Source: Gordonibacter sp. Marseille-P4307
GTDB lineage: Bacteria > Actinomycetota > Coriobacteriia > Coriobacteriales > Eggerthellaceae
Reading direction: 5' to 3'
NCBI RefSeq assembly: GCF_900604965.1
Contig: NZ_UWPD01000001.1
Coordinates: 946,642-1,010,641, forward strand
DNA: 64,000 bases
Positions within the stretch are counted from its first letter, which is position 1. Each line of letters starts with the position of its first letter. Position numbers and translations under genes: made by a program. Of this stretch, positions 1-49,737 are shown piece by piece. The notes under the pieces were generated by a model. The model saw nothing but the letters and a program-made list of their open reading frames with translations, was not told the origin of the DNA and did not search any database.

Positions 1-1134
1 CCCGAGCCTTTCAAGCGCGAAGCGCTTTCGGCCGCCATCGAGAAGGCGAACAAGATCATAGCGAACGTGCCCGAGCTGGCGAAGCAGGGCAAGGGGTACG
101 AAACCAAGGCCTACGACGCGTTCTATGCAAGCTATCTGCGCGCTAAAGCGCTTATGGCAACCGAGGATCTGAAGTTCATCGTGGGATCCCACGAGGGCGG
201 TGCCCTCAGCACCCAGCGCGATTTCGATCGCACGGCAGCCGAGCTGGAGGATCTTTCCGGCAAGCTGCCTGTGATCGAGCGCAAGGCGGTGGACACCGGC
301 AAGCTGAAGGCGACGTTCTTCAAGGCCCTCGACCGCAAGCCGGCCGACGGAAAGGGATGGGAGGCCTCTTCGGGTCGTGCGTTCCGCGACGCTCTTACCA
401 ACGCCCAGGAGGTTCTGAACACGGCCTATCCTTCCGAGGAAGCGGTCGAAGGCGCGCTGAAGACGCTTGTCGAGGCGGGCGATGCGCTGAAGGAAGCGAA
501 CCTCGATCCGAAGTCCGCTTACACGATGAACATACGCTACCGCCACCATGCCGAAGACGCTCCGTCTCACCTGATCGACAAGTACTTCGAGGCTGATGGA
601 GCCCAGGTGAAGGTGGCGAAGGAGGGCATCGTTCCCGGGTCAGAGGTGCGAATTTATATGGACGACCTCGATCTGGTGAAGAAGTTCGACGGCTATAGGC
701 CCACCACGTTCTTCTATGCGTCGGATGACGGCACGCTTGGCAAGGTGCGCCTGTTCACAGGGGAGGACGGCCGCGCATTCGTGTCGTTTGTGGCCGAGGC
801 GAACGGAGATTTGGACATTAAATACGAGAAGGGCGCAGATTCCCGCCAGCCCGCTCCTGCTCCCGTGCCGACCCCCGAATTGCCCGACGATAAGAAGCCC
901 GAGCCCGGCAAGCCCTCCGATCAGGTGAAGCCCGAACCTGGGAAACCTGCCGACCGGATGGATCCTGCAGTAGACCAGCCCAAGCCCGCCGAAAGCCAGA
1001 AACCGGTCGAGGGCGACAAGAAGACCGCCATGCCGAAGACCGGTGACAGCGCGGGTCTCGCTGCGGTTGCATCGAGTGTGGCCGCCGCTCTCTCCGTTCT
1101 TGGGTTTGCGGCATTCAGGCGCCGTCGCGACTAG
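1..1134 (+). CDS. Sortase-anchored surface protein, 3' part (5' end outside window)
   Basis: The frame is open from base 1, so the protein is cut at its N-terminus; 377 residues are visible. The first third holds helical, Ala/Lys/Glu-rich segments that resemble FIVAR-type stalk repeats of Gram-positive surface proteins; this is a family-level impression. A Pro/Lys/Glu-rich wall-spanning stretch follows, with PEPGKP repeated (about bases 840-1020). The C-terminus is a cell wall sorting signal: MPKTGD (bases 1030-1047), a hydrophobic helix and a RRRRD tail. A sortase would cleave between T and G and attach the protein to the wall. The first motif residue is Met rather than Leu. No sortase gene lies in this window. 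Ligand or substrate is unknown. Confidence 0.85.
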   Translation, partial: PEPFKREALSAAIEKANKIIANVPELAKQGKGYETKAYDAFYASYLRAKALMATEDLKFIVGSHEGGALSTQRDFDRTAAELEDLSGKLPVIERKAVDTGKLKATFFKALDRKPADGKGWEASSGRAFRDALTNAQEVLNTAYPSEEAVEGALKTLVEAGDALKEANLDPKSAYTMNIRYRHHAEDAPSHLIDKYFEADGAQVKVAKEGIVPGSEVRIYMDDLDLVKKFDGYRPTTFFYASDDGTLGKVRLFTGEDGRAFVSFVAEANGDLDIKYEKGADSRQPAPAPVPTPELPDDKKPEPGKPSDQVKPEPGKPADRMDPAVDQPKPAESQKPVEGDKKTAMPKTGDSAGLAAVASSVAAALSVLGFAAFRRRRD

Positions 1135-38750: not shown

Positions 38751-39821
38751 ATGGATTTCTCATCACCGATGCTCACTCGACGCGCATTCGCGGGTTCGGC
38801 CGTGCTGTTCGGCGCGGCGCTGGCCTTGGCGCCCTCTCGCGCTTTCGCGGTTTCCGCAGCGGAAAAGCAGGCTGAAGCCGATGCGGTGCGTGCGCAGCTC
38901 GTGTCGCTCCAGGCCGATTTGGAGCAGGCCGAAGCTCATTACCATCGCGCCATAGAAGAGCGCGACGCAGCGCGCGCGGCTATGGACGAGCAACAGGTTC
39001 TCATCGACGCTTCAACCCGTCGCATCTCCGATCTGCAGCAACGTTTGGGAGATCGTGCGGTTAGCATGTACCGCACCGGCCCCACGGGCTTTCTCGACTT
39101 CATGCTGGGTGCGAAATCGTTTGACGAGCTCGCCCAGAACTGGGACCTGCTGAACCGCATCAACGACGAGGACGCGCGTCTGATCGAGGAGACCAAGCAG
39201 GAAGAGGCGCGGCTGGAGGCGGCGCAGGAGGAATTCGCGCACCAGGAGCGGATTGCGGCCGATAGGGCGGCTGAAGCCGAACACATCAGCGCCGATGCCA
39301 ATGAACGGGTGGAAAAGGCCACGGTGCTGCTGAACACACTGGATGCAGAAGCGCGCGAACTACTGGAGCAAGAGCAGGCGGCTGCTGCGGCCGAAGAGGC
39401 GGAGCGCCGTCAAACGATTAAGGAGAAGACTCCTGCCCCCGTTGCCGGCCCGATCGATCGGGGAGGGCAGACGTCCGATAATTCCGCAGCGGCCGACTGG
39501 GCGCTGACGAAGATCGGATGTCCGTATATCTTGGGTACCGCAGGGCCCGATACGTTCGATTGCTCCGGTTTGGTGGTGTGGGCCTACGCGCAGATAGGCA
39601 TTCACCTTCCGCATTTCACCGAATCGCTTTACGCAGCAGCAAAGCGCGTGGTTCCCATCTCGCAGGCGCGCCGCGGCGATGTGCTGTACCGTTACTGGCA
39701 CTGCGGCATCGCGCTCGTTCCCGGCGGATCGAAGTACGTTCATGCCCCCACGCGCAACGCCAGGGTGCGCGATACCGACCCCCTCTCGTGGTCGGGGTTC
39801 ACCTGCGCGCTCCAGTTCTAA
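38751..39821 (+). CDS. Tat-exported NlpC/P60 cell-wall hydrolase (paralog 1)
   Basis: 356 residues. The N-terminal signal LTRRAFAGSAVLFGAALALA has twin Arg plus Phe, and AFA-V is a likely cleavage site. Residues about 35-215 form a long coiled coil as in PcsB/RipA-type hydrolases, including VSMYRTGPTGFLDFMLGA. A short linker leads to the NlpC/P60 domain: C271 (FDCSGLVVWAY), H317 (WHCGIAL) and H331 (YVHAP), a Cys-His-His triad. It likely cuts peptidoglycan stem peptides outside the membrane, in daughter-cell separation. TCAGGAGGGA precedes ATG 38751. Confidence 0.92.
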   Translation: MDFSSPMLTRRAFAGSAVLFGAALALAPSRAFAVSAAEKQAEADAVRAQLVSLQADLEQAEAHYHRAIEERDAARAAMDEQQVLIDASTRRISDLQQRLGDRAVSMYRTGPTGFLDFMLGAKSFDELAQNWDLLNRINDEDARLIEETKQEEARLEAAQEEFAHQERIAADRAAEAEHISADANERVEKATVLLNTLDAEARELLEQEQAAAAAEEAERRQTIKEKTPAPVAGPIDRGGQTSDNSAAADWALTKIGCPYILGTAGPDTFDCSGLVVWAYAQIGIHLPHFTESLYAAAKRVVPISQARRGDVLYRYWHCGIALVPGGSKYVHAPTRNARVRDTDPLSWSGFTCALQF

Positions 39822-39917
39822 GGGGCTTCGGGTTTTCAACGCGCCGGCTCTTTCGTCGAAGCGTTCGCGCATGCGCGGTCTGCCGGCTGCTTTTTCTGCA
39901 CTATGCATAGCTCGAGA

Positions 39918-39950
39918 CGAGACGCACCCCGTATCTTGGGGTGCGTCTCG
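39918..39950 (+). terminator. Terminator after NlpC/P60 paralog 1
   Basis: A perfect 13-bp stem (39918-39930 with 39938-39950), 7-nt loop, followed by CGTTTGC. Confidence 0.75.
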
Positions 39951-40168
39951 CGTTTGCACTCAATGTATGGTGGTTTTGCTTGATATTGCGGATATTTTTT
40001 GCTTCCGATCTGCGGAAACAGTATCCTGAATTGTGAAATTCACAGCTCTGTCAACCCAAAATGGGAAAAACGTCCGAAATTGGCCTCCGTTGACGAAATA
40101 CCGCAAATTCAATCGATCTACCAGGTGATATGAAGTGAAGAACAAAACACAAACCTGAAAAAGCACGC

Positions 40169-40182
40169 GTGTTAGTATAAGG
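40169..40182 (+). promoter_or_regulatory. Extended -10 promoter of the second NlpC/P60 gene
   Basis: GTGTTAGTATAAGG with TG-T-TAGTAT, 62 bp before the ATG; matches the element at 38690 in sequence and distance. Confidence 0.55.
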
Positions 40183-40230
40183 CTTGCAACGTCTCGAATA
40201 TGTACCCCATTGTTCGATCAGGAGGTTTCT

Positions 40231-41385
40231 ATGAGCGAACAAGTAACGAATCTGAGTAGACGCGTGTTCATCGGTGGCGCGGCGCTGTTCGGCACCGCTC
40301 TCGTCATGAATCCGAATCGCGCCTTCGCGGTCTCCGCCGCCGAGAAGCAGGCCGAGGCCGACGAGGTGCGCAACCAGCTCGTTTCCCTTCAGGCCGACCT
40401 CGAGAAGGCGTCGAACGATTACTATGCCGCTCTCGAACAGCAGCAGGCTGCGCAGTCTTCCATGGAAGAGCAGCAGGCCCTTATCGATCAGGCATCTTCC
40501 CGCATCGATGAGCTGCAGACGCGCGTTGATTCTCGTGCCGTCAGCATGTACCGCACCGGTCCCACGGGCTTCCTCGACTTCATCCTCGGAGCCTCTTCGT
40601 TCTCCCAGCTTACCCAGAATTGGGACATTCTCAACCAGATGAACGAAGACGATGCTCGCTTGGTGGAGGAAACCAAGACCCAGAAAGAGGCTCTCCAGGC
40701 TGCAAAAGACGAGTATGCTCGCCAGGAGCAGATCGCTGCCGACAAGGCTGCCGAGGCCGAGCGCGTTCAGAGTACGGTTTCTTCGCGCATTGCCGAGGCA
40801 TCGGTTCTTTTGGAGTCTCTTGATGCGGAGACGCGCGAGCTTCTCGAGCAAGAGCAGGCCGCAGCTGCGGCCGCGGCTGCGCTTGAGGCTGCGGCTGCTC
40901 ATCAGCAGTCGGGGGGGTCCAGTGCTTCGTCGGATACAGGTTTTGGCGATAATGGTGGAAGCTGGTCGGCTCCGAATAGCCCGGCTACCCCTTCTGCACC
41001 CGCTCCGAGGCCTACGTATTCAACGGGGGGATCTGCTGGAGATAACTCGGCAGTTGTTGGTTATGCGACGTCTCGTATTGGTTGTCCTTATGTCTGGGGT
41101 GCTGAGGGTCCCGATGCGTTTGACTGTTCTGGTCTAGTGGTCTGGGCATACCGCCAGATTGGAATGAACCTTCCGCATTATACCGAGTCACTTTATGCTT
41201 GTGCTAAGAACGTCGTTCCGGTTTCCCAAGCACGGCCTGGAGATGTTTTGTATCGCAACCAGCATGTCGGTATCGCCATCGGTTACGGCGGCGTTCCGTA
41301 CGTGCATGCGCCTACTTTCGGAGCAAGGGTGCGCGATACCGATGCCTTGTCTTGGTCGGGATTTACAGCGGCGCTGCAGTTCTAG
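40231..41385 (+). CDS. Tat-exported NlpC/P60 cell-wall hydrolase (paralog 2)
   Basis: 384 residues, same architecture as the upstream gene and clearly a duplicate. Tat signal is LSRRVFIGGAALFGTALVMN with cleavage near AFA-V. A coiled coil follows (SMYRTGPTGFLDFILGASSF again), then a Ser/Gly/Pro-rich linker longer than in paralog 1. The NlpC/P60 domain carries C299 (FDCSGLVVWAYRQIG), H345 (QHVGIAI) and H359 (YVHAP). ATCAGGAGGTTT gives a near-perfect ribosome binding site. Codon use shifts at about 40915: the linker and catalytic domain use many T-ending codons, unlike the first half and unlike neighbouring genes. Confidence 0.92.
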   Translation: MSEQVTNLSRRVFIGGAALFGTALVMNPNRAFAVSAAEKQAEADEVRNQLVSLQADLEKASNDYYAALEQQQAAQSSMEEQQALIDQASSRIDELQTRVDSRAVSMYRTGPTGFLDFILGASSFSQLTQNWDILNQMNEDDARLVEETKTQKEALQAAKDEYARQEQIAADKAAEAERVQSTVSSRIAEASVLLESLDAETRELLEQEQAAAAAAAALEAAAAHQQSGGSSASSDTGFGDNGGSWSAPNSPATPSAPAPRPTYSTGGSAGDNSAVVGYATSRIGCPYVWGAEGPDAFDCSGLVVWAYRQIGMNLPHYTESLYACAKNVVPVSQARPGDVLYRNQHVGIAIGYGGVPYVHAPTFGARVRDTDALSWSGFTAALQF

Positions 41386-44437: not shown

Positions 44438-44455
44438 AGGTCTGGTTTGGATTCG

Positions 44456-44490
44456 GGCGGCTGCTTGGTTTTGCAGCCGCCTATTCTTTC
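44456..44490 (+). terminator. Terminator after the flavoprotein gene
   Basis: A 9-bp GC-rich stem (44456-44464 with 44473-44481), a T-rich loop, then TATTCTTTC. It overlaps the 3' end of the convergent ATP-grasp gene. Confidence 0.7.
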
Positions 44491-45942: not shown

Positions 45943-47907
45943 ATGTGTGGATTCGTAGGCTTCACCGCAGTCGACTTCGACCAGCGGGTCAACCGCGACA
46001 TCGTCAAGGACATGGCGGACCGCATCATTCATCGTGGTCCCGACGACGAGGGCTATTTCGTGAACGACGACATCGCGATGGGGTTCAGGCGCCTGTCGAT
46101 CATCGATCTTGAAGGAAGCCGTCAGCCCATGCAGAACGCCGATGCTACGGTGACGGTTACCTTCAACGGCGAGATCTACAATTTCCAGGAGCTGCGCGCC
46201 GAGCTTCAGGATCTAGGTTATACCTTCGTCACCAATGGCGATACCGAAACCATCGTTCACGGCTACGAGGCGTGGGGCACCGATGTGTTCGAGCGGCTTC
46301 GCGGCATGTTCGCCATCGCCATCTGGGACGATGCTAAAAAGCGCTTGATCTGCGCGCGTGATATCTTCGGTATCAAGCCGTTTTACTATCAGCACGATGG
46401 CGGGCGGCTTATCTACGGATCCGAGATCAAGGCGTTTCTCGCGCACCCGAAGTTCCGCAAGGCCGTGAACCGGGCGATGCTGCCTCAGTACCTGTGCTTC
46501 GAGTACATGAACGATTCCCAAACCATGTTCGAGGGCGTTCACAAGCTTTTGCCCGGTCACTTTATGGTGTTCGAGCAGGGTCGTCTTGACATCGAGTGCT
46601 TCTATCGCATCACGTACAACATCGACGAGTCCAAGAGCCTTGACGAATGGGCCGATATCGTGCGCGACACGTTCGACGAGTCTGTGCGCGCCCACGAGAT
46701 CGCCGATGTAGAAGTGGGCAGCTTCCTGTCCGGAGGCATCGACTCGTCGCTTGCCGCTTACGCGATGGGCCGGCATCACGCCGAGGGCGTCAAGACGTTT
46801 TCGGTGGGTTACGAGATCGGCTGCGAGGAGAAGCTGGCCGAGATTGCCGAACAGTCCGATTTCGAGATCAAGCTCGACGAGCTGGCCGACTCCAGCAGTT
46901 TCGCCGCGTGGGCGGGCTTGCCCAACTTCGAGACGCGCGTGTCGGCCAAAGAGTTCCTGGATATCGTTCCCACCGAGCAGTACCACATGGACGAGCCTTT
47001 GGGCGCACCGAGCGCGATCCCCCTGTATTTCGTGTCGCAGCTGGCGCGCAAACAGGTGAAGGTGGTGCAGTCTGGAGAGGGCGCCGACGAGCTGTTCGGC
47101 GGGTACTGGATCTACCACGATCAGTACGAGTTCTCGAAGTACCTGGCCGTCCCGCGTCCCTTGCGCGCCCTGGCTGGCGCGGTGGCCGAGAAGCTGCCCG
47201 CCTTCCACGGTCGACGCTTCCTCATGCGCGGTTCGGGCGGCCCCGAGAAATCGTATCAGCGCACGTCGATGAACTACATGTGGGACGAGATTCCCAGCGT
47301 TTTGAAGGGCTATGCCGGTCCGTGCAAACCGTGGGAATGGGCGCGTCCCCATTTCGAGGAAGCGGCCAAGCAGAACACCGACATAATCACGCAGACGCAG
47401 TACGTCGATATGGTGAGCTACATGCCCTTCGACATCTGCCTCAAGGCCGACAAGATGTCCATGGCGCATTCCATTGAGCTGCGCGTTCCCTTCCTTGACA
47501 AGAAGGTGCTCGACGTGGCGCTGCAGCTGCCCACCGCGTGTCGTGTGGACGATACGCATTCCAAATATGCTTTGCGCGTGGCTGCGAGCAAACTGGGTTT
47601 CCAGAAGAAGGTTGCCAACATGCCCAAGCAGCCCTTCATCACGCCTCTGACGGTGTGGCTGCAGACCGATTTGTTCTACAACCGCATCAAAGAGGCGTTC
47701 ACGAGCGCTGCGGCGCACGAGTTCTTCAATGTGGACTACTTGATGCGGATGCTGGACGATCACAAAAGCGCCAGCTTCGCGACCACCGAAGGCCGCGGCA
47801 AGCTGAAGATGATGCGCATCTGGAACATCTACTGCTTCCTGTGTTGGTACGAGGTGTTCTTCGGTGCCTCGTCGGAGAAGTGGGCGCCTAAAACCCAGGT
47901 AGCATAG
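45943..47907 (+). CDS. asnB: Asparagine synthase-type glutamine amidotransferase (AsnB/LtsA-like)
   Basis: 654 residues. Cys2 is the class II glutaminase nucleophile (MCGFVGF), followed by RGPDDEGYF and NGEIYN. The synthetase half has the pyrophosphate loop SFLSGGIDSS (about 261-270), GEGADELFGGY and KADKMSMAHSIELRVPFLD. It transfers ammonia from glutamine to an adenylated carboxylate. The standard substrate is aspartate. Relatives such as C. glutamicum LtsA and B. subtilis AsnB amidate meso-DAP in peptidoglycan, and length and neighbours make that a fair alternative here. AGAGGAAGG precedes the ATG. Confidence 0.9.
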   Translation: MCGFVGFTAVDFDQRVNRDIVKDMADRIIHRGPDDEGYFVNDDIAMGFRRLSIIDLEGSRQPMQNADATVTVTFNGEIYNFQELRAELQDLGYTFVTNGDTETIVHGYEAWGTDVFERLRGMFAIAIWDDAKKRLICARDIFGIKPFYYQHDGGRLIYGSEIKAFLAHPKFRKAVNRAMLPQYLCFEYMNDSQTMFEGVHKLLPGHFMVFEQGRLDIECFYRITYNIDESKSLDEWADIVRDTFDESVRAHEIADVEVGSFLSGGIDSSLAAYAMGRHHAEGVKTFSVGYEIGCEEKLAEIAEQSDFEIKLDELADSSSFAAWAGLPNFETRVSAKEFLDIVPTEQYHMDEPLGAPSAIPLYFVSQLARKQVKVVQSGEGADELFGGYWIYHDQYEFSKYLAVPRPLRALAGAVAEKLPAFHGRRFLMRGSGGPEKSYQRTSMNYMWDEIPSVLKGYAGPCKPWEWARPHFEEAAKQNTDIITQTQYVDMVSYMPFDICLKADKMSMAHSIELRVPFLDKKVLDVALQLPTACRVDDTHSKYALRVAASKLGFQKKVANMPKQPFITPLTVWLQTDLFYNRIKEAFTSAAAHEFFNVDYLMRMLDDHKSASFATTEGRGKLKMMRIWNIYCFLCWYEVFFGASSEKWAPKTQVA

Positions 47908-47955
47908 GGTTTACTTCGCTATAAGGATTCTTTCGATAACTCGCTCTCGTCTGGG

Positions 47956-47980
47956 AGGCCGGCTGTTGCCGGCCTTTCCT
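47956..47980 (+). terminator. Rho-independent terminator of asnB
   Basis: An 8-bp stem (47956-47963 with 47968-47975), TGTT loop, followed by TTCCTT. Confidence 0.75.
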
Positions 47981-47996
47981 TGAGAAGGTGACCGTG

Positions 47997-48092
47997 ATGC
48001 CTCAGACGGGGGACGGTGCCCTTGCGGTGTGTGCAGGAGCTTTCGTGATCCTGATCGTCTCTGCACTGCGTCGCACCCGCAGCGATTCGTAG
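47997..48092 (+). CDS. 31-residue micro-ORF consisting of a sortase sorting signal
   Basis: MPQTGDG, then a hydrophobic helix of about 17 residues and RRTRSDS. This is the exact architecture of a cell wall sorting signal (LPxTG-like motif, membrane span, basic tail) with no protein body in front. AGAAGG lies about 10 bases upstream of the ATG, and GTG 47988 and 47994 are other possible starts. The frame is open back only to a stop at 47937, and the asnB terminator lies within that stretch. The motif matches MPKTGD at the end of the surface protein at 1-1134. It may be a relic of a deleted surface protein or a real micropeptide. Confidence 0.5.
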   Translation: MPQTGDGALAVCAGAFVILIVSALRRTRSDS

Positions 48093-48163
48093 CGACGACG
48101 ACGCCCGAGCCAAGGTGCATCGGTCAAAGAGAATGCGCGGTTTAAGGTAACCTAAGCACGCCA

Positions 48164-48193
48164 ACGGGCCCTCTCGATATCGAGAGGGCCCGT
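48164..48193. terminator. 30-bp perfect palindrome, likely bidirectional terminator
   Basis: Complete dyad symmetry (13-bp stem with tetraloop) followed by TTCGATTG on the plus strand. It lies between the micro-ORF and the 3' end of the DUF1846 gene. Confidence 0.7.
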
Positions 48194-48255
48194 TTCGATT
48201 GACAAGACAGTCGATTTGCGGAACGGTTTCGCGCCCGTACTGCTCGGTTCGCTCT

Positions 48256-49737
48256 TTAGGCGTGGTAGTAGCGACCTTGTTCGAACTGGGGTTCACAGCA
48301 TACGTTGATGCCCAGCGTGCGCAGCAGCTGCTCGTCTTCCTCGTGCAGGATGAACGAGAAGTGCGCATCGCATCCGCGCAGCTCTTTCAGATGCGAGATG
48401 GCCTTTTCGGCATCGGGCGAGTCGATGGAGCTGGTGGAAAGCGCAATCAGCATCTCGAGAGGATGCAGCTGGGGGGTGCGCTGGTTCAGCTGGTTCTCGC
48501 GCAGGCTGCAGATGGGTTCCAGAGCGCGATTCGAGATCACCCAGGTCTCATCGGCGATGCCCGCCTGCGCCTTCATCGCGTTGATCAGCACCGAGGCGGC
48601 CGCCCCCAAAAGCTCCGAGGACTTCCCGGTGATCACGCGCCCGTCATGCAGCTCGATTGCCCCGGCTGCGCGCTCGGTTTCGGCGGCGCGGGTCAGCGCG
48701 GCGGCGCGCGAGGGGATGAGGTCGATATCGATGTGCGCTTTCTTCATCAGAAGCTTGACCTTGGCCGCATCGACGGCTTCGGTCCCCATCCGGCGCGCGG
48801 TCTCGGCGGCCTTGAAATAACGGCGCACGATCTCGCGGTTGGCGGCCGCGCGCACGGTCTCGTCATCGACGATGGCCTTGCCCGCCATATTGACCCCCAT
48901 GTCGGTAGGCGACTGGTAGGGGCTTTCGCCCTGAATGCCGTCGAGCATGGCTTTCAGCACGGGGAAGATCTCGATGTCGCGGTTGTAGTTCACGGTGGTT
49001 TGCCCGTAGGCCTCCAGATGGAACGGGTCGATGGCGTTCACATCGTCCAGATCGACCGTGGCGGCTTCGTAGGCGATGTTGACGGGATGATCCAGGGGAA
49101 TATTCCAGATAGGGAAGGTCTCGAACTTCGCGTACCCGGCGGTGATGCCGCGACGATGCTCGTTGAACAGCTGGGAGAGGCAGGTGGCCATTTTGCCCGA
49201 ACCCGGTCCGGGTGCGGTGACGACCACCAACGGCCGCGAGGTCTCGATGAAGTCGTTTTTCCCGTAACCCTCATCGCTTACGATGTGATCGATGTCGTAG
49301 GGGTAACCGGCGATGGGATAGTGCAGGTAAGTGCGCAGCCCCAGGGCGCTCAGGCGCTCGCGGAACTGGTCTGCGTTAGGCTGGTTGCGATACTGCGTGA
49401 TGACGATGCTGCCCACGAAAAACCCTCGATCGTTGAATGCGTCTACCAGGCGCAGGACGTCCTCATCGTAGGTGATGCCCAAATCGCCCCTGATCTTGTT
49501 GCGTTCGATGTCGTTTGCGTTTATGGCGATCACGATTTCGGCTTCGTCAGCCAAAGCCTGGAGCATGCGCAGCTTGGTGTCGGGCTCGAAGCCGGGGAGC
49601 ACGCGCGCGGCATGGTAGTCGTCGAACAGCTTGCCGCCGAATTCGAGGTAGAGCTTTCCGCCGAACTGATTGATGCGCTCCCTGATGTGGGCCGCTTGCA
49701 GCTCGATGTACTTCTCGTTATCGAATCCTTGTCGCAT
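48256..49737 (-). CDS. DUF1846 domain-containing protein
   Basis: 493 residues of the DUF1846 family, common in anaerobic Firmicutes and Coriobacteriia. The start (MRQGFDNEKYIELQAAHIRE, FGGKLYLEFGGKL) and the nucleotide-binding-like VVVTAPGPGSGKMATCLSQL are conserved. The glycine-rich GPGSGKMAT resembles a P-loop, so ATP binding is plausible. No pathway is firmly assigned. AGGAGGGATGGA precedes the start. It is divergent from pyrG over 334 bp and probably monocistronic. Confidence 0.9.
   Translation of the reverse strand: MRQGFDNEKYIELQAAHIRERINQFGGKLYLEFGGKLFDDYHAARVLPGFEPDTKLRMLQALADEAEIVIAINANDIERNKIRGDLGITYDEDVLRLVDAFNDRGFFVGSIVITQYRNQPNADQFRERLSALGLRTYLHYPIAGYPYDIDHIVSDEGYGKNDFIETSRPLVVVTAPGPGSGKMATCLSQLFNEHRRGITAGYAKFETFPIWNIPLDHPVNIAYEAATVDLDDVNAIDPFHLEAYGQTTVNYNRDIEIFPVLKAMLDGIQGESPYQSPTDMGVNMAGKAIVDDETVRAAANREIVRRYFKAAETARRMGTEAVDAAKVKLLMKKAHIDIDLIPSRAAALTRAAETERAAGAIELHDGRVITGKSSELLGAAASVLINAMKAQAGIADETWVISNRALEPICSLRENQLNQRTPQLHPLEMLIALSTSSIDSPDAEKAISHLKELRGCDAHFSFILHEEDEQLLRTLGINVCCEPQFEQGRYYHA

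Follow-up and report, generated by a model that had tools for sequence, protein, structure and literature searches.

A headless cell-wall sorting signal beside asnB in Gordonibacter sp. Marseille-P4307, probably the 3' stump of a lost surface-protein gene

A sorting-signal frame without a protein

The closest described systems are the LPXTG-type sorting signals (Pfam PF00746, NCBIfam TIGR01167), and the orphan frame studied here shares with surface proteins of its own genome the xPxTGD motif, the hydrophobic span and the basic end of such signals. It differs from them in that it has no protein body or signal peptide, is unmatched by both models and has the shortest hydrophobic span. A second comparison is offered by Streptococcus gordonii, where C-terminal peptides left over by sortase signal via a histidine kinase (according to PMC11502775, citing Hall 2019). 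As described there, these peptides comprise the equivalent part of a surface protein (the post-motif residues and the membrane span), but they are cut by sortase from full-length adhesins, whereas the putative product of the orphan frame would be the tail translated alone. A narrow literature search for a stand-alone sorting-signal micropeptide found none, which does not mean that none has been published.

The window (the whole stretch of 64,000 nucleotides that was analysed, from a genome of 1.8 Mb) holds the orphan frame between two intact genes. The relevant features are as follows.

45943-47907, + strand: intact asnB-type asparagine synthase gene, 654 aa, left neighbour (name from the preliminary description, in keeping with our reading of the sequence)
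47953-47979, + strand: 11-pair hairpin with a broken T run, probable asnB terminator
47979-47996, + strand: in-frame codons LEKVTV, including GAGAAGG, probable parent-protein remnant before MPxTG (matched to LAKVTV in the nearest relative)
47997-48092, + strand: orphan cell-wall sorting signal MPQTGDGALAVCAGAFVILIVSALRRTRSDS, 31 codons plus stop
48163-48194, no strand assigned: perfect 16+16 palindrome, probable two-way terminator common to the DUF1846 gene
48256-49737, - strand: intact DUF1846 gene, 493 aa, convergent right neighbour (DUF name from the preliminary description)

The frame runs from the ATG at 47997 to the TAG at 48090-48092 and measures 50 codons from stop to stop; an in-frame GTG at 47988, upstream of the ATG, would give a 34-aa version. 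Its product begins with MPQTGDG, continues as a hydrophobic stretch and closes on basic residues, so that the order of a cell-wall sorting signal ([LM]PxTG, hydrophobic span, basic C-terminal end) is present, while within the 50 codons, with a hairpin directly upstream, we found no signal peptide or exported body. The peptide has no match to PF00746 or TIGR01167 at E ≤ 10, and its weak NCBIfam matches fall below cut-off, with E 0.029 for a KdpF model and E 0.044 for a model of an NPXTG anchor. From TG to the first basic residue it spans 19 residues, the shortest among the genus tails compared (others 21–28, with one nested false match of 15 set aside), and its three basic residues are the joint lowest number among these tails. 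The orphan tail is thus itself marginal as a sorting signal. Of the sortases in the genome, two score above the Pfam cut-off and a third falls short of it.

The asnB stop codon lies at 47905-47907, and the hairpin arms, GGGAGGCCGGC-TGTT-GCCGGCCTTTCC, stand between it and the orphan ATG. Readthrough from asnB into the orphan frame was ruled out by the different reading frame and intervening stops. Scanning 47600-48400 for promoters of the sigma-70 type (other promoter types being outside its scope) gave no such site, a search of the orphan region against Rfam gave no match, and no flanking repeats were found around the tail.

We assessed how often such a signal arises by chance using 20 simulated genomes of 1.8 Mb each, drawn from an order-2 Markov model of the window. 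The pattern [LMAS]PxTG followed by a hydrophobic span and a basic end, which was set post hoc with the orphan sequence already known, occurred 3 times (0.15 per genome, equivalent to about 0.005 in 64 kb); the looser form with any xPxTG occurred 8 times and [LM]PxTGD 0 times. The window itself holds just two such signals, one in the orphan frame and one in the surface protein with which the window opens. A sorting signal like this one rarely arises by chance, and the preliminary description was right to single out the 31-codon frame as a sorting signal and nothing else. In codon usage the 31 codons score 0.15, inside the in-frame range (5–95%: 0.09–0.47, from 78 gene pieces of the same length), and this exceeds the 95th percentile in each of the two off-frames (0.06 and -0.06). 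As this is coding-like, the piece probably derives from a gene. With the frame open, all parts of the signal intact and codon usage still coding-like, decay of the frame was not observed.

Relatives and the asnB/DUF1846 junction

The orphan frame has no counterpart in relatives. At E ≤ 0.1, none of 137 other family genomes holds a short-frame version; ten of them give a match, nine in frames of 519–3860 codons; the tenth match, in G002 (L014), falls in a frame of 113 codons that is not a sorting signal. At E ≤ 0.01, the peptide matches none of 395 other phylum genomes (a set that overlaps the family set), and within the genus there is no short frame even at E ≤ 10. Overall, no orthologous copy was seen in any genome searched.

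The neighbouring genes are well preserved in the nearest relative, G024, whose AsnB and DUF1846 protein are 97% and 99% identical to the window's; AsnB of the same-genus genome G026 is 84% identical. Another genome, G025, was unusable for synteny because DUF1846 has no match in it and its AsnB relative is only 42% identical. In G024 the junction between the two genes is 105 bp long, carries a similar two-way hairpin and has no similarity to the window's; in G026 it holds a 411-aa gene whose product, on our reading of the sequence, looks like a membrane acyltransferase. The content of this junction (47908-48255 in the window) therefore differs in each same-genus genome in which both genes were found, being a stub in the window, a short terminator in G024 and the 411-aa gene in G026. 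In related genera the distance from asnB to the DUF1846 gene ranges from several kb to about 20 kb.

The preliminary description had proposed looking between these two genes in relatives for a full-length surface-protein gene or a conserved micro-ORF, and neither was found. A full-length surface gene is absent from the junction in G024 and G026, and a regex scan of L071–L081 and L098 gave none either. Outside the genus, the comparison covered nine stretches between asnB and DUF1846, taken from eight genomes in six genera (the G020 stretch ends about 1.2 kb before DUF1846). Searched against its own genome, the 306-bp junction DNA returned, among the matches listed, only the reverse of the palindrome itself and a match of 21 bp (E 0.48); in family genomes, plasmids and phages there was nothing but short chance-level pieces. 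As other intergenic gaps often fail to align between the window and G024 too, the loss of DNA similarity at the junction says little, and the missing peptide is the stronger evidence.

Homology across the start and a second headless signal

Directly 5' of the orphan ATG, the in-frame codons read LEKVTV, and G024 has LAKVTV before the MPKTG of a 1181-codon surface-protein frame. Using LEKVTV plus the tail as query, tblastn against 146 of 149 loci (three with the same stretch were excluded) gave the tail of this 1181-codon frame as best match (LEKVTVMPQTGD / LAKVTVMPKTGE, 50% over 42 columns, E 1.3e-4), an E value that is favourable by choice because the loci had been gathered for being tails. 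The tail without LEKVTV scores E 0.95 per genome against the same G024 tail, in a search of different size and settings, so that the two values compare only loosely. Other full-length proteins of the genus have similar residues before the motif (KKVFV, KKVKV, KKTV). Homology to a longer gene thus continues past the apparent start, over a short upstream stretch of six residues only, and on this comparison the reading frame predates its own ATG.

This bears on the ribosome binding site reported in the preliminary description. The string is there, GAGAAGG at 47982-47988, 8 nt 5' of the ATG, but it is unremarkable, as anti-SD pairing is equal or better at 14% of 2000 random window positions. About equally strong strings occur 5' of the internal Met in full-length tails (L123, -5.9; L137, -5.5; L135, -5.2; L118, -4.9 kcal/mol; orphan, -5.9). 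Because the homology crosses the ATG, the "ribosome binding site" can be read as the place where the lost protein had its Glu-Lys codons, with an internal Met posing as the "start". The preliminary description had also tied the frame to the surface protein at the start of the window (67-1134) through an "unusual" MPxTGD form. That link did not hold up: MPxT[GA] is found on 11 genus tails besides the orphan among the tails listed, so the form is common and the likeness uninformative, and the two tails are 39% similar.

A comparable case exists elsewhere in the same genome (G000). At about C2:500826-501037 (L144, G000:C2:486000-505000), a 101-codon frame (C2:500835) ending in LPITGD (LPITGDAFVIAAVVAGLALVSSGTLAFALRKRRAAK) abuts a gene that we read as an ABC transporter ATPase. 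At this site G024 has the orthologous ATPase followed by an intact 778-aa gene ending in LPVTGD (LPVTGDAFVIAAVVAGVALASSGALAFVLRKRRAEK), and the aligned blocks are 65 bp apart in G000 versus 2328 bp in G024, so that some 2.3 kb has been lost from G000 or exchanged there. The most natural reading is a deletion of the body that would have left the sorting signal behind. Both stubs are headless sorting signals beside an intact conserved gene; for the LPITGD stub, in contrast to the orphan, an intact orthologue is known from the corresponding site of G024. When 25 genomes were scanned for further orphan tails with TIGR01167, 6 of the 60 matches listed lay in frames of ≤ 107 codons, four of them in the fragmented genome G143, where three were near a contig start.

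Origin of the orphan frame

We consider the orphan frame very probably what is left, at the 3' end, of a gene for a sortase-anchored surface protein that formerly lay between asnB and the DUF1846 gene and whose body was deleted. The deletion relic, one of two options in the preliminary description, is favoured because the frame is not conserved, homology reaches 5' of the supposed start and the same genome carries a second stub. Counting against it are the absence of a full-length surface gene from the junction in every genome compared, the shortness of the upstream homology and a frame that is still open and coding-like. The deletion would have taken the signal peptide and the body, with one break just past the asnB terminator and a few codons from the anchor motif. 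The stump would then consist of about six linker codons (LEKVTV) and the MPxTG motif, followed by a hydrophobic span that is slightly reduced in length, the basic residues and, beyond them, the terminator. With the Met of the motif encoded by ATG and the Glu-Lys codons resembling a Shine-Dalgarno sequence (SD), the stump would mimic a small gene. We infer the deletion event itself, its occurrence in the lineage of the window and the stump's want of function; most likely this is an ordinary relic made by deletion, and we give a small probability to its being translated and active.

A relic could also be the tail of a surface gene brought in by insertion or recombination instead of being left by deletion on site. 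That the junction differs in every same-genus genome examined, with no relative carrying a surface gene there, would fit such an import, which we nevertheless hold to be unlikely: among the matches listed the 306-bp stretch has no good DNA copy elsewhere in the genome, the tail lacks flanking repeats, and no plasmid or phage matched. The other option of the preliminary description, a translated micropeptide specific to this lineage, would have the sorting signal alone insert into the membrane and occupy sortase or mimic a post-sortase C-terminal fragment. An open frame with a well-spaced SD-like site, the intact order of motif, hydrophobic span and basic end, coding-like codons and the presence of sortases all suit it, and so does the signalling by leftover fragments in S. 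gordonii, as PMC11502775 describes it. No positive evidence supports the micropeptide itself, however, and the preliminary description itself held that a frame missing from close relatives would be a relic. Moreover, the 137 family and 395 phylum genomes do not conserve the frame, the sigma-70 scan gave no promoter-like site, a probable terminator lies 17 nt upstream, the motif must cross the membrane unaided by a signal peptide, and the SD is accounted for by parent codons. Taken together, this makes a micropeptide very unlikely.

We regard a chance frame with no surface-protein ancestry as highly improbable. The Pfam and TIGR01167 models do not recognise the peptide, and the preliminary reader had many frames to choose among; against this stand the 0.15 occurrences per simulated genome, the absence of [LM]PxTGD from all 20, the coding-like codon usage and a similarity that reaches upstream to KVTV. 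Barely plausible is a broader proposal in which deletions of surface-protein genes across the genus leave translated stubs (the orphan and the LPITGD frame), which would act as free C-terminal peptides, titrating sortase or providing input to a membrane sensor.

If the frame is such a stump, a truncated surface-protein gene can pass for a small gene complete with start codon and ribosome binding site, since the linker before MPxTG is rich in lysine, its codons can resemble an SD, and Met is the first residue of the motif. This calls for caution in small-ORF catalogues. Turnover of surface-protein genes between close species of the genus is also indicated.

Two further differences were seen outside the junction. 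Opposite window 44442-44471, G024 (L140) has about 5.6 kb of extra DNA that is absent from the window and includes two frames, one of 415 aa and one of 847 aa whose sequence we read as resembling a Tat-exported molybdopterin oxidoreductase. In addition, window 38804-41384 also matches neighbouring stretches of G024 secondarily, at about 69%, which suggests tandem paralogous genes.
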